A DNA stretch of 59,278 nucleotides from Desulfobacteraceae bacterium. Lineage in GTDB: Bacteria > Desulfobacterota > Desulfobacteria > Desulfobacterales > JAABTS01. Position 1 is the stretch's first letter, and every line of letters starts with the position of its first letter. The notes below the pieces were generated by a model. That model searched no databases and was not told where the DNA came from. It was given only the letters and a program-made list of their open reading frames with translations. Position numbers and translations under genes: made by a program. Shown here in pieces: positions 48,661 to 59,278 of this stretch. The stretch is from NCBI GenBank assembly GCA_011389735.1, contig JAABTS010000014.1, forward strand, positions 1 to 59,278. The letters run 5' to 3'.

Positions 48661-49004
48661 AAATGCAATATCCTCATAATCATCTTGACATTTCAAAAAT
48701 AATTTGCTCTGATTTCCGTACCTGGTTTTAAAAAACCGACCGTGTCATAAACGTTTAGCTTTATTTTTTACTTTGGCCAAATCTCTGCGCCATGATTCTG
48801 CTTTGAAACGGCATCCTGTTTTTATGGTGTTTTTTGGGCAGGCGCGTGATGAAGACAGATAAGGCCTGAATGACTTTTAAATCGGAATTGCGCAAATCGT
48901 CTGAAAACCTGTGGAATTCTTATCTGGTATAGCACACGCGGCTCCGCATGGGAATTCATTTTAAGACGATTTCTGTCGCAAGCTTTAACAACGGAGAGAG
49001 TTTT

Positions 49005-50132
49005 ATGAAACAGAAAGTATTGTGGCTTATGGTATTGGCTTTGGGGATTGCGCTTTCATCGGCGCCGGGATTATGTGATACAAAAAAATCGGTTCATATC
49101 GGGCTCGCGATTCCGGTGACCGGCCCTTACTCCTCATATGGAAAGCAGCTCGAAAACGGAATCAATCTGGCGGTGGAAGAGGTCAATCAGTCCAAAGGAA
49201 GTGATGAAGCGTCTGTGGAACTGGTGATCGAGGATAGCCGGGGTATTCCTGAAACAGCAAAAAGGGCCGCCCGTAAACTGACTTCCGACAAACGAGTGCT
49301 CGCCGTCATCGGTGATTTCAACAGCAGTTCCTCCATGGCTGCGAGGCCTGTTTATCAGAGAGCCAAAACAGTCCAATTGTCTCCGACGACAACCCATCCG
49401 TCGTTTACCCCTCAAAATCTCTATAGTTTCGAAATAGCCGGAACCCAAGACCGGGAAAGTGAATTCATGGCCAAAACGGCTGTCGAAACCTTCGGCAAAA
49501 AGAAAATCGCCGTGTTGTTTGTCAATAACGACTGGGGTGTTTTCGGTCGTCAGACCTTTTCGGAGGAGGTGGAAAAACTCGGCGGTGAAATCGTGGCTTC
49601 CGAAGGCTTTTTCGAACAGGCGGCTGATGTTTCGGCCGCAGTTGAAAAAGTCCGCTCCGCCGGCCCCGAGTTTCTGTATATTTGCTCGATGACGCCGGGA
49701 GGGATACGGGTGTTGAAACAGATTCACGAGATTGGATGGGACGATGTCATTATTATGGGCGCCAGGCCCATGTATCTGCCGCAATTGATTGATGGAGCCG
49801 GAGAGGCTGCAGAAAACGTTTTGGTGGGATCGATTTTTTTTCACGGGGAAAACCGTCCGGAAGTTCAAGCATTTGTAAAGGCGTACCGTCAAAAGTACGA
49901 TCAAACCCCTGACATGATCGCCGCCATCGCATATGACGCCGCCAGACTGATTATCACAGCCATCCGTAATAGTTCGGGTGATCGTGAATCGGTTCGCAAA
50001 GCTCTCACTGAAATCAAGGATTTCTCAGGTCCTACCTTAAAAAATGCGTCCTTCACCGAGGACCGCCATATGACACGGGAATTCCTTATCCTTCAGGTCA
50101 AAGACGGCGATTTCGTTCTCTATGACCATTAA
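49005..50132 (+). CDS. Periplasmic amino-acid-type ligand-binding protein (LivJ-like)
   Basis: A 375-residue exported protein with signal peptide (about 1-23, LMVLALGIALSSAPGLC) and a two-lobe type I periplasmic fold: HIGLAIPVTGPYSSYGKQLE, IGDFNSSSSMAARPVYQRAK, LSPTTTHPSF and KKIAVLFVNNDWGVFGRQTF match branched-chain amino acid and related receptor families. GGAGAGAG lies before ATG 49005, which is preferred over a start at 48948. No permease genes follow; the next gene is a chemoreceptor, so it may present a ligand to it. The ligand is unknown. Confidence 0.9.
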   Translation: MKQKVLWLMVLALGIALSSAPGLCDTKKSVHIGLAIPVTGPYSSYGKQLENGINLAVEEVNQSKGSDEASVELVIEDSRGIPETAKRAARKLTSDKRVLAVIGDFNSSSSMAARPVYQRAKTVQLSPTTTHPSFTPQNLYSFEIAGTQDRESEFMAKTAVETFGKKKIAVLFVNNDWGVFGRQTFSEEVEKLGGEIVASEGFFEQAADVSAAVEKVRSAGPEFLYICSMTPGGIRVLKQIHEIGWDDVIIMGARPMYLPQLIDGAGEAAENVLVGSIFFHGENRPEVQAFVKAYRQKYDQTPDMIAAIAYDAARLIITAIRNSSGDRESVRKALTEIKDFSGPTLKNASFTEDRHMTREFLILQVKDGDFVLYDH

Positions 50133-50216
50133 AGCCGCCGGCGTTTATAATGATATGAAGTTAATTTTTCCATTCACTTAATTCCAAAACAAAAAGATAA
50201 AGAAGTGATACCGGTC

Positions 50217-52052
50217 ATGGCTATTTTTTCAAATTGGAAAATTACGACTCGAGTGTTTGTCCTGAATCTGGTGTTCATTGTCATCGCAGCCGCCATACTG
50301 ATTGTTGTTCTGGCGTCGTTCAGAAATGTGAAGAGCTTTATTACTTCCGTGGTGGATCGGGATATCAACCGGGTGGTTGAAAACAGCGCTGTAGGAAAGG
50401 AGTTTACAGGCGTATTCGCTGATTTGCTCATGAATTTATTTTATGGTTCCGGGGATTCCGAACAGGGACTGGTTGAACGATTCGCTCGAATCGAAACGGC
50501 TTTGGCCGAAAAGGGGGAAAACCCCGAACTTCAATCTTCGCTTGAAAATTTCAAACAAAGCCTGGGGCCCTTTTTGGAGGACTCCGCGTTGATTCGGCGG
50601 ACGCCGGCTCAATTCGGCGACATTGAAAACGATTTTCTGTACAATCTGGAAACACTTCAATTTGTCATCGAGGAAAAATTGTATTCCACCGATCCGGAAT
50701 CTGATGCGTCACTGATTTATCATCTAAAACAGCTTCAGATGATGAGTACCCGATATCGGGAAAGTTTTGTCAATATTTCAAGGCAGGTAAACGGATTGTC
50801 GGGGCCGGCGGGCGCTAAGGCGGACGCCTCCGCCGGCGAATCCGCAATCAAAGCCGTCGGCTATTTCATGAACGAACTTCAAACTCTGACGGCTTCGGAA
50901 TCCGAAATCGCGGAACAGGGCCAAAAGCTAATCGAAACCCTCGCTGTTTACAAGGACAAAATTGAATTGTTCATGGAAGTGCTCGCCCGGTTTCAAAGCC
51001 GTTTGGAAGATGTCAACAGCGCGAAGGAACAGATCATGGCGCTGTTGAACGCCTCTAACCGTGCGATCGCAGATTCAACTGAAGATATCAAGCAAAATAT
51101 TATCAGCAAAACGGACGCCTCCGAAAACATCGTAACGCTGTTGATCGGCGTTTTGATCATCGTATTGCTGATAATAAGCCTGTTTATCATGAAAATGTTC
51201 CGTCCGATAGTTCATGTCGTGAGTGAATTACGTCGAAATTATGAGCAGCTACTAAATACTGCGGATCAGGTCTCGGTGTCCGGCAAGCAATTATCGGACG
51301 GATCGTCCGAACAGGCCGCGTCAACCGAAGAAACGTCCGCCTCACTTGAAGGCATTACGTCCACAGCCAGACAAAACGCTGCTAATGCGGAACTGGCAAG
51401 GCAATGCGAATCTGAAACCGAATCATTGATCAATCAGCTCAATGAACGGATAAACAAGCTGATTGAATCCCTTGGATCGATTTTGGAATCTGAAAAAAAC
51501 ACTCGCGCAATTATCCGGAAAATCGACGACATCGCCTTTCAAACGAGACTACTCGCTTTGAACGCCGCCGTTGAAGCCGCCAGAGCCGGAAATGCAGGCG
51601 GCGGATTCGCCGTAGTCGCAGGCGAAGTTCGCAATCTCGCAGTAAAAGCAACGGAATCGGCCCAAAATTCAACGGACGTCATTTCTGAAACTGAAAAGAG
51701 AGTTGACGAGAGCTCAAAGCTTATTGCTGAATTGAAAACGTCGTTCATGGAGGTGGATACAAATTCGAAAAAAGTATATAAACTTATCAATGAAATCGCC
51801 GAGGGTTCTAAAACTCAGTTTGAGAGAGTCGATCAGATTAAATACGCTGTCAGGGAAATTGACCGGGTGACACAACAAAATGCTTTTGCATGCAAACAAT
51901 CCTCGGATTGTTCAAAGGAAATGACATTCCAGGCGGAACAAATCAAAGAACTTATAAACAGCTTGCAGGTGGTTATCGGTGGCCGAACGTCGTATTCCGG
52001 ATTGAAAAAACAATCGTTGATATCGGCTTTACAATCCGGTATATTGAAATGA
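50217..52052 (+). CDS. Methyl-accepting chemotaxis protein
   Basis: A 611-residue receptor with membrane segments at about 10-35 and 300-322 that enclose a ~265-residue periplasmic helical sensor. There is a HAMP-like start ([11 protein letters not shown]) and then the cytoplasmic coiled coil with [20 protein letters not shown] and the signalling hairpin [20 protein letters not shown] followed by [18 protein letters not shown]. The tip has the normal [10 protein letters not shown] core. ATG 50217 is preferred over GTG 50205. It sits between a binding-protein gene and a UGA-containing selenoprotein gene plus cheW, forming a small sensory unit apart from the main che cluster. Confidence 0.95.
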
Positions 52053-52069
52053 TTGAACTCAAATCCACC

Positions 52070-52077
52070 AAAGGAGG
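52070..52077 (+). promoter_or_regulatory. Strong ribosome-binding site of the selenoprotein gene
   Basis: AAAGGAGG ends 5 nt before ATG 52083. It supports translation of a gene that otherwise would stop after 12 codons. Confidence 0.8.
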
Positions 52078-52082
52078 TTATT

Positions 52083-52298
52083 ATGGCTGACAAAATTATT
52101 ATTTACGGAAAAAGCGGTTGACCTCACACCGACCGGGCCAGGCAGGCCTATGAAGACCACCGGTACTACGATGTTAAATCCGACTCCGGCAAAATGGATG
52201 AAATGCTGAAGCTGTCCGGAGGGAAAAGGAGAGTTCCCGTCATCTTAAAGGACGGCGACGTCACAATCGGATTTAATCGCGGTAGCTGAGGCGTCTGA
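52083..52298 (+). CDS. Glutaredoxin-like selenoprotein with two selenocysteine codons (UXX-star type)
   Basis: A 71-residue protein read through two in-frame UGA codons (52119-52121, residue 13; 52287-52289, residue 69), stop UGA at 52296-52298. The start reads MADKIIIYGKSG-U-PHTDR, a beta strand then a U-x-x-T redox motif in place of the glutaredoxin Cys-Pro-x-Cys/Thr; later come MLKLSGGKRRVPVIL and DGDVTIGFNRGS-U-GV. This matches my memory of small UXX-star (seleno)proteins with a G-S-U/C-G-V tail. Each UGA is followed by a hairpin with GG in the apical loop at 20-23 nt. A strong ribosome site precedes it. It lies between the chemoreceptor gene and cheW. The role is likely thiol/selenol redox chemistry; substrate unknown. 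Selenocysteine biosynthesis genes are outside the window. Confidence 0.85.
52132..52164 (+). other. SECIS-like hairpin for first UGA
   Basis: Apical stem GGCC (52136-52139)/GGCC (52145-52148) with loop AGGCA; outer ACCGG/CCGGT (52132-52136 and 52160-52164) gives an alternative longer pairing. The loop GG lies 20-21 nt after the UGA at 52119-52121, the spacing expected for bacterial SECIS elements. Confidence 0.6.
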
Positions 52299-52327
52299 TG
52301 ATTTCCGCCGGGAGCGGAAAACCAGAC
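52293..52327 (+). other. SECIS-like hairpin for second UGA
   Basis: Perfect 7-bp stem TTTCCGC (52302-52308)/GCGGAAA (52314-52320) with loop CGGGA, plus outer GTCTG (52293-52297)/CAGAC (52323-52327). The loop GGG is 21-23 nt after the UGA at 52287-52289. The structure reaches beyond the terminal stop into the leader of cheW. Confidence 0.7.
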
Positions 52328-52402: not shown

Positions 52403-52921
52403 ATGAACGACAACCTCATCGAAGAAACCAATCAATATCTTACATTCATGTTGGACAGGGAATTTTTCGCGCTTGAAATAGGAAAAGTCCGGGAAGTCAT
52501 GTACTGCATGGAAATCACCCGGATTCCCAAAACGCCCGATTATTTTAAAGGCGTTATCAACCTGCGCGGAGACGTGGTTCCGGTCATTGATTTAAGACAC
52601 CTTTTAAGCATCGGCGAGATCAAACAATCCGGAGACACCTGTATCATTATCGTTGAAATCGGATCCGGCGACAATCAGATTCAGATCGGCGCGCTTGCGG
52701 ATTCGGTTCAGGAGGTCATCCATATCCCTTCGGATATGATTTCTCCGGCCCCCAAAATCGGAACAAAGCTGGACACACTGTTTATTCAGGGAATCGGAAA
52801 GAGGAACGATCATTTCATCATAATTCTGAACATCGAAAAAATCCTGACGGTGGAAAACATTTCCGATCTTAAATCCGTCGCTTCGGTAGCCGCCGATTAT
52901 ATGACCGCTGATGAACAGTAG
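52403..52921 (+). CDS. cheW: Chemotaxis coupling protein CheW
   Basis: A 172-residue CheW-domain protein: QYLTFMLDREFFALEIGKVR, ITRIPKTPDYFKGVINLRGD followed by VVPVIDLR and the C-terminal ILNIEKILTV block. It links receptors to CheA. AGGGGAGA precedes ATG 52403. It is the only stand-alone cheW here and lies next to the chemoreceptor and selenoprotein genes rather than in the main cluster 10 kb upstream. Its stop abuts a family C element. Confidence 0.95.
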   Translation: MNDNLIEETNQYLTFMLDREFFALEIGKVREVMYCMEITRIPKTPDYFKGVINLRGDVVPVIDLRHLLSIGEIKQSGDTCIIIVEIGSGDNQIQIGALADSVQEVIHIPSDMISPAPKIGTKLDTLFIQGIGKRNDHFIIILNIEKILTVENISDLKSVASVAADYMTADEQ

Positions 52922-57041: not shown

Positions 57042-59278
57042 ATGAAAAACAAAGACATCTACCTCAAAGATCCCTCAGTGCAAAAGCTTGTCAATGAAGG
57101 CGTGGCCAATGTCAATGACGACAAGAGCCGGGAAGCTCTGGCCGTGCTTCGATACGAACTGGAGACCTTTGTTTGCGACGGCCAGTATGAAAAAGGGCTC
57201 GCCCATATCCTGGAAACCTATCTCAAAAATATCGACCAGGCCCAGCAACCCGCGGTGTGGATCAGCGGGTTTTACGGGTCCGGGAAATCCCATTTGGTGA
57301 AGATGCTCCGGGCGCTCTGGGAAGACACCGTGTTCGAGGACGGGGCCACGGCCAGGGGAATCGCCGGGTTGCCGCAACATATCAACGACCTGCTCAAGGA
57401 ATTGTCCGTTTCCGGCAAACGGCACGGCGGCCTCCACGCCGCATCCGGAACTTTGAGCGCGGGCGCGGGCGACAGTGTCCGCCTGGCCCTTCTGGGAATC
57501 ATTTTCAAATCCGTCGGTCTTCCCGAACGCTATCAGAACGCCCAATTCGTCATGTGGCTCCGGCGGGAAAACATTTATGACGCCGTCAAACAGCATGTGA
57601 TCGATAACGGCGCGGACTGGGAAGAGGAAATCGACAACCTCTATGTGGCGGAAACCCTCCATGACGCCCTTGTCTCGGTCAAACCGCAGTTGTTCCCCTC
57701 CAGAGCGGTCTGCGCCGAAACGCTCAACAATCTCTACCCCATGGTTCGGGATATCACCAGCGACGAGATGGTCAAGGCGATCCGCCAGTCGTTGACAAAC
57801 GGCAAAAAATTTCCCCTCACCGCGGTCATCCTCGACGAAGTCCAGTTGTATATCGGTGAAGATTCGAACCTGTCGGCCCATGTCCAGGAGGTGGTGGAAT
57901 CCTGCTGCAAGCATATCGGCGGAAAATTGCTGTTTATCGGCACGGGCCAGACAGCGGTTACGGGCATTCCGATCCTGAAACGGCTCGAAGGCCGGTTCAC
58001 CATCCGGATCGAACTGTCGGACGCCGATGTGGACGCCGTGGTCCGCAAGGTCATTCTGGCGAAAACGCCCGATGCCATCGAACCGGTCGACAAAGCGCTC
58101 CAGGCGAATATCGGCGAAATCTCCAGGCATCTGTCCGACACGGCCATCGGCCACCGGCAGGAGGATGTTCAGGTTTTCAGCCAGGATTACCCGGTTCTGC
58201 CGGTTCGCCGAAGGTTCTGGGAACACACGCTGCGGGCCCTTGATCCCACCGGCGCGGACAGCCAGCTCCGAAACCAGCTCAGCATGATCCACAAAGCCGT
58301 CCGGACCAACCTGAATGAACCCCTGGGCCATGTCATCCGGGGCGATTACATCTATTTCGATACGGCGGACAGGCTGCTTCAGGCCAGGGCTCTGCCGCGA
58401 AAAGTCCACGAAAAAACCATGCGCTGGATCACCGGGTCCGAAACCGAACAACTCACGGCGCGGGCCTGCGGGGCGGTTTACCTGATCAACCGGCTGGCGG
58501 CCGGAGCCGATGAGATCGGCATCCGGGCGACGGTGGACACGGTGGCGGATCTGCTGATCGAGGATTTGCCCAAAGGCGGCGCCGGACTCAGAAACACGCT
58601 CCCGAATCTCATGGACAAATGCGAATTGCTGATGAAAGTCGGCGATGAATACCGGATTCAGACCGAGGAAAGCGCGGCCTGGAACGATGATTTTTTGAGC
58701 CTTCGCCAGCAACTGGCCAATGAAATGCACCGCCTCGACGCGGAACGGGAAGACCGGATACGGCGAAAATTCGGTGAAATCGTCAAAAATTTAACCCCGG
58801 TTCAGGGGAACGCCCGAGTGATGCGTGAATTCTATCCGGTGTTCAACGCCCGGCTTCCCGCCGATGCGGATCAAAAAATTCATGTCTGGGTGCGGGACGG
58901 ATGGAATACCGATGAAAATTCTCTCCTGATCGACGCCCGGCAGGCCGGGAGCGATTCTCCGGCCATATTCGTGTTTGTCCCCAAACGGTCGGCGGACAGC
59001 CTGCGCCGGTATCTGACCGATTTTAAGGCTGCCCGGGCGACGCTCGACCAGCGGGGAACGCCCGGAACCCCTGAAGGCGAGGAGGCCCGCGCCGCAATGG
59101 AAACCACCCTGAAAAACGCTGAACGACGGCTCGGCGAATTGCTCGATGATTGTTTTTCCGGCGCGCGCGTTTTCCAGGGCGGCGGTCAGGAGATCATCGG
59201 CGCCCAATTGCGGGACGCTGTTTCCACTGCTCTTGAAAATGCCCTTCTGCGCCTCTACCCCCAGTTTCAGGCCGCCGA
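57042..59278 (+). CDS. brxC: BREX ATPase BrxC (partial, runs off the window)
   Basis: An open frame of 745 codons from ATG 57042 to the window end without a stop. The start MKNKDIYLKDPSVQKLVNEG and the following VANVNDDKSREALAVLRYEL are typical of BrxC, the ~1200-residue P-loop protein of type I BREX. Walker A GFYGSGKSHLVKML (about 76-89) and Walker B TAVILDEVQLYIGE (about 259-272) are intact. The rest is expected beyond the window, along with pglX, pglZ and brxL. The opposite strand also shows long open frames here, which I regard as shadows. Confidence 0.93.
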   Translation, partial: MKNKDIYLKDPSVQKLVNEGVANVNDDKSREALAVLRYELETFVCDGQYEKGLAHILETYLKNIDQAQQPAVWISGFYGSGKSHLVKMLRALWEDTVFEDGATARGIAGLPQHINDLLKELSVSGKRHGGLHAASGTLSAGAGDSVRLALLGIIFKSVGLPERYQNAQFVMWLRRENIYDAVKQHVIDNGADWEEEIDNLYVAETLHDALVSVKPQLFPSRAVCAETLNNLYPMVRDITSDEMVKAIRQSLTNGKKFPLTAVILDEVQLYIGEDSNLSAHVQEVVESCCKHIGGKLLFIGTGQTAVTGIPILKRLEGRFTIRIELSDADVDAVVRKVILAKTPDAIEPVDKALQANIGEISRHLSDTAIGHRQEDVQVFSQDYPVLPVRRRFWEHTLRALDPTGADSQLRNQLSMIHKAVRTNLNEPLGHVIRGDYIYFDTADRLLQARALPRKVHEKTMRWITGSETEQLTARACGAVYLINRLAAGADEIGIRATVDTVADLLIEDLPKGGAGLRNTLPNLMDKCELLMKVGDEYRIQTEESAAWNDDFLSLRQQLANEMHRLDAEREDRIRRKFGEIVKNLTPVQGNARVMREFYPVFNARLPADADQKIHVWVRDGWNTDENSLLIDARQAGSDSPAIFVFVPKRSADSLRRYLTDFKAARATLDQRGTPGTPEGEEARAAMETTLKNAERRLGELLDDCFSGARVFQGGGQEIIGAQLRDAVSTALENALLRLYPQFQAA

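Follow-up and report, generated by a model that had tools for sequence, protein, structure and literature searches.

A predicted double selenoprotein of UXX-star family 1, with two SECIS-type hairpins, beside chemotaxis genes of a Desulfobacteraceae bacterium

Background

UXX-star family 1 (NCBIfam NF041114, also named 'distant Grx-like protein 1') is tabulated in a 2026 review (PMC13188914) as a UxxT family with two selenocysteines (Sec) per protein; a term search in the main text of the 2008 GOS paper, which the review cites for this family, gave no clear account of it. The same review models the bacterial SECIS element (bSECIS) as a hairpin with a loop of 3-9 nt, a stem of 4-16 bp, a G in the first two loop positions and a spacing of 16-37 nt. 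Three groups of proteins lie close to family 1. UXX-star families 2 and 3 (NF041211 and NF047338) have related profiles. Classical glutaredoxins and NrdH (PDB 7c10, 3grx, 1h75) share the fold of the protein described here (Z about 8-9), yet carry Cys for Sec, a CxxC motif and a longer C-terminus. Finally, the UPYC/UPHC Grx-like proteins of the same phylum (L155-L159, L172, L173) have a Grx-type sequence and a Sec at the first site, but they are UxxC proteins in which a C-terminal extension replaces the Gly-rich tail, and no second Sec corresponds to that of family 1.

Here, I describe a member of family 1 in a stretch of 59,278 nucleotides (the window) from the genome of a Desulfobacteraceae bacterium; all features discussed lie on the forward strand.

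Results and discussion

Family membership and the two UGA sites

The gene spans 52083..52298 and encodes 71 amino acids followed by a UGA stop. Its start codon ATG (52083-52085) and, 5 nt 5' of it, the Shine-Dalgarno-like AAAGGAGG (52070..52077) were read directly; they and the UGA codons 13 (52119..52121, within G-U-P-H-T) and 69 (52287..52289, within G-S-U-G-V) stand where an earlier note, made from the letters alone, had placed them. That note let the gene run to 52327, which takes in the outer stem of the second hairpin, but the coding part stops at 52298 with the true stop UGA (codon 72, 52296..52298), a second UGA following directly 3'. With UGA read as U, the product is MADKIIIYGKSGUPHTDRARQAYEDHRYYDVKSDSGKMDEMLKLSGGKRRVPVILKDGDVTIGFNRGSUGV, of a calculated mass of ~8.0 kDa; it contains no cysteine, the two Sec being its sole thiol or selenol residues.

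The NF041114 profile matches this product end to end (positions 1-70 of 70, 106.3 bits, 6.9e-31, against a curated cut-off of 72 bits), in agreement with its first description as a glutaredoxin-like UXX-star selenoprotein. The product also passes the wider Uxx-star model NF041212, its Pfam match is Glutaredoxin, and it falls far under the cut-offs of families 2 and 3 (43 and 42 bits against 100 and 97). The first site reads U-P-H-T, thus UxxT, and the second Sec lies in a Gly-rich tail near the C-terminus (GSUGV-stop). Length, UxxT motif, Gly-rich tail and the two Sec are common to this gene and the family; the differences are UPHT where the family more often has UPYT or UPFT, FNRGS before Sec69 where G[YF]xGGS is usual, and the chemotaxis neighbours discussed below. 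The gene is therefore a genuine new member of a catalogued family and not a new kind of gene: the two Sec in 71 residues, which had been called striking, are real, but they are a known property of the family and not peculiar to this member.

A search of the whole host genome returned 52083-52298, with its two internal TGA, as the only family-1 locus. In a sample spanning the phylum, 75 of 297 genomes carry a copy over the cut-off, and within the order 152 of 291 do; two TGA occur in most of these homologues across the phylum and in many within the order. The top-scoring relative in the collection of named genomes belongs to Desulfatitalea alkaliphila. Twenty weaker matches were also fetched, and the readable ones proved to be Grx-like, with U/CPxC and an extended C-terminus but no second Sec.

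Reading the family-1 loci on both strands gave 98 distinct sequences, from loci that either the family model or a search with this protein had hit, and then chosen by a pattern permitting U, C or S at either site, a sample that is fair for U versus C inside family 1 and not for more distant relatives. Sites 1 and 2 are U/U in 80 of them and C/U in 18, no other combination being found; hence every member has Sec or Cys at codon 13 and UGA at codon 69. Exactly two residues, mostly conserved and usually Gly-Val, follow the second Sec before the stop in 94 sequences, and three residues in the other 4. As the next codon in those 94 may be of any kind (TGA in 39, TAA in 38, TAG in 17), it behaves as a true stop. 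Judged from these comparisons and from the hairpins and sel genes described below, it is highly probable that the gene is a functional member of UXX-star family 1 with Sec inserted at both UGA codons.

Predicted fold and proposed chemistry

The AlphaFold2 model, built with 62 aligned relatives, has a pLDDT of 88.6 and a pTM of 0.74. Against the PDB it scores highest with glutaredoxins, NrdH and comparable thioredoxin-like proteins (Z about 9 over 61-67 residues), and phmmer against the PDB gave mostly weak glutaredoxin matches; the Pfam match and the predicted structure thus agree on a glutaredoxin fold. In the model helix 1 begins at Sec13, the site of catalysis in this fold, while the C-terminal tail (residues 68-71), Sec69 included, lies outside every alignment to a solved structure.

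Since the protein is devoid of cysteine, the two selenols can only react with one another, with a thiol from outside, or with a metal or metalloid. In the scheme proposed here, the product would be a cysteine-free glutaredoxin-fold protein in which Sec13, at the start of helix 1, serves as the attacking selenol, and Sec69, in the Gly-rich C-terminal tail, presumably comes close to it and acts as its partner. Such a two-selenol redox protein would have both selenols free in its reduced state and, once oxidised, would form a diselenide or join an outside thiol in a mixed selenenyl-sulfide, cycling between the two states. A redox role of this sort has about an even chance of being right. Counting against Sec-Sec pairing as a rule, the first site is Cys in 18 of the 98 relatives, where the partner need not be Sec.

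The main competitor to this redox scheme, possible though somewhat less probable, is that the double selenoprotein binds or carries a metal or metalloid and is not a redox enzyme. Two selenols with zero cysteine would suit such a function, and roles as metal ligands have been suggested for UXX-star families (PMC13188914). No recognised metal-resistance genes adjoin the gene, however, and the mixed neighbours of family-1 genes elsewhere, among them a peroxiredoxin-like AhpC/TSA protein (L077) and a rubrerythrin (L082), would rather suggest redox stress.

The C-terminal Sec is never Cys in the 98 sequences, and the N-terminal one is Cys in 18 (loci L014-L134). Because the C-terminal Sec thus appears indispensable, whereas the supposedly catalytic N-terminal one can be Cys, the alignment also admits an unlikely third reading, in which the Gly-rich GxU tail would be the true reactive centre and would represent a small class of C-terminal selenol chemistry of its own; in this host the protein might have been recruited to the chemoreceptor operon to sense redox state or metals.

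Genomic neighbourhood

The gene had been noted as embedded in a chemoreceptor unit, and its flanks are indeed of that kind: a methyl-accepting chemotaxis protein (MCP; 50205..52052, PF00015, 3.4e-33) lies upstream and a CheW (52403..52921, PF01584, 1.9e-35) downstream. All three lie on the same strand, with 30 nt between the MCP stop and the start of the gene and 104 nt between its end and CheW. Directly before the MCP, at 48948-50132, there is a periplasmic ligand-binding protein (Peripla_BP_6, 1.4e-66), perhaps the ligand-binding partner of the MCP. Near the other side, the window closes at 57042-59276 with the start of a BREX BrxC/PglY gene (PADLOC PDLC02489, 1110 bits), cut by the window end.

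The spacing on one strand might suggest that the UXX-star protein serves the chemoreceptor array as its own redox input (MCP-UXX-CheW). Such a role is very improbable: no MCP or CheW relative was detected beside any other family-1 locus fetched, most of them with at least 1.5 kb of flank, and, along the same line, no family-1 gene was found, with the sequence pattern used above, within the 1.5-kb flanks of 19 CheW loci in other genomes of the order. The neighbours at other family-1 loci vary, the AhpC/TSA and rubrerythrin genes named above being two examples, a universal-stress-like protein (L099, own reading) a third, and selB, in two genomes, a fourth; in the latter (G047, contig C54, 6470-8904; G083, contig C215, 9800-12838) the family-1 gene lies a few hundred bases 3' of selB on the same strand. 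In G510, a genome from the order to which the window belongs, the same frames adjoin the locus at unchanged distances, so that the host most likely falls within the Desulfobacterales. The chemoreceptor setting, common to no other member examined, is no evidence of function; the simplest view is that it arose by local accident or is an association particular to the lineage.

Decoding of the two UGA codons

Behind each UGA stands a bSECIS hairpin of its own, with a G-G or G-U in the apical loop about 20 nt after the UGA; on comparative grounds both codons are decoded as Sec, and translation ends at the UGA two residues past the second Sec. Both hairpins satisfy the published bSECIS model; a scan of the locus with Rfam gave no match to a SECIS family and one chance hit.

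The second hairpin is the better supported of the two. It spans 52293..52327, crossing the stop codon into non-coding DNA, and consists of an upper 7-bp stem (52302-52308/52314-52320, loop CGGGA) and an outer 5-bp stem (52293-52297/52323-52327); its folding energy is -15.0 kcal/mol (z = -2.6). Across 53 aligned sequences, 82% of the cells of the upper stem are paired, against 57% in shuffled and at most 46% in slid alignments, and covariation reaches 0.635, against 0.226 shuffled and at most 0.18 slid. Compensatory changes are seen at 7 of 7 pairs, and 99 cells are doubly changed, where shuffles give 32.5. As the upper stem lies 3' of the stop codon, codon choice cannot account for its pairing. 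The outer stem, described together with the upper one in the earlier note, is present in this gene as a prediction but finds no support in the family, where only 47-52% of its cells are paired and it shows no conservation.

The first hairpin (52135..52149; stem 52135-52139/52145-52149, loop AGGCA at 52140-52144) has its GG at nt 23-24, counting from the U of UGA, and folds at -8.2 kcal/mol. Its stability alone shows no excess over shuffles (z about 0.1 to 0.8), so that it can be told from chance only by comparison; a general search for the best hairpin after UGA13 came out barely above shuffles, and the signal is seen only when the register is fixed. The hairpin sits within a conserved A-R-x-A stretch, and most of its pairs are therefore set by the protein. 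The pair closing the loop, formed by a wobble base and a third base, varies among CG, UA and UG and is retained in 79 of 80 Sec13 genes against 6 of 18 Cys13 genes (Fisher p 3e-10, a value which is uncorrected for kinship and, the sequences being related, too favourable); on visual inspection, the Cys13 members form several dissimilar sequence groups. With the upper stem of the second hairpin covarying and the closing pair of the first tracking Sec13, the comparisons indicate that both hairpins are real SECIS-type elements, as had been proposed.

The machinery for Sec insertion is at hand, for selA, selB, tRNA-Sec (selC, anticodon UCA) and selD, for which a search had been advised, were all found in the host genome. 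Its selD (L075, contig C61) has an in-frame UGA within GAGUASKLSPG, and so the host has a second selenoprotein gene. In six genomes with a double-TGA copy, no selB was detected at E 1e-60. The simplest explanation is that these draft genomes are incomplete; three of the six belong to a genus in which two further genomes do carry selB.

Two rival accounts of the UGA codons fare poorly against this body of evidence. That only codon 13 is recoded, UGA69 being the ordinary stop of a 68-residue protein, was a fair question given its place three codons from the end and the use of UGA as a stop at codon 72 and in the MCP gene, but it is hardly credible for a codon that is UGA in 98 of 98 relatives and never UAA or UAG, that is followed by two mostly conserved residues and any stop, and that has a strongly covarying non-coding hairpin 3' of it. 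A decayed glutaredoxin pseudogene with two nonsense mutations, which the two in-frame UGAs within a short frame and the FNRGS directly before Sec69 might evoke, is equally far-fetched, given dozens of genomes with the same two UGAs, a good Shine-Dalgarno, the retention of family-invariant residues and hairpins, and the presence of sel genes.

Conclusions

To sum up, an 8-kDa gene with two recoded stops could be read correctly from the raw sequence, and its second Sec, three codons from the end, appears genuine on comparative grounds. What is useful to the field holds for the whole family: its second SECIS spills past the stop into non-coding DNA, so that covariation there can be assessed with no constraint from codons. 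Moreover, the family offers a natural Sec/Cys control, the first hairpin decaying where Sec is lost, and none of the members examined has replaced the C-terminal Sec by Cys.
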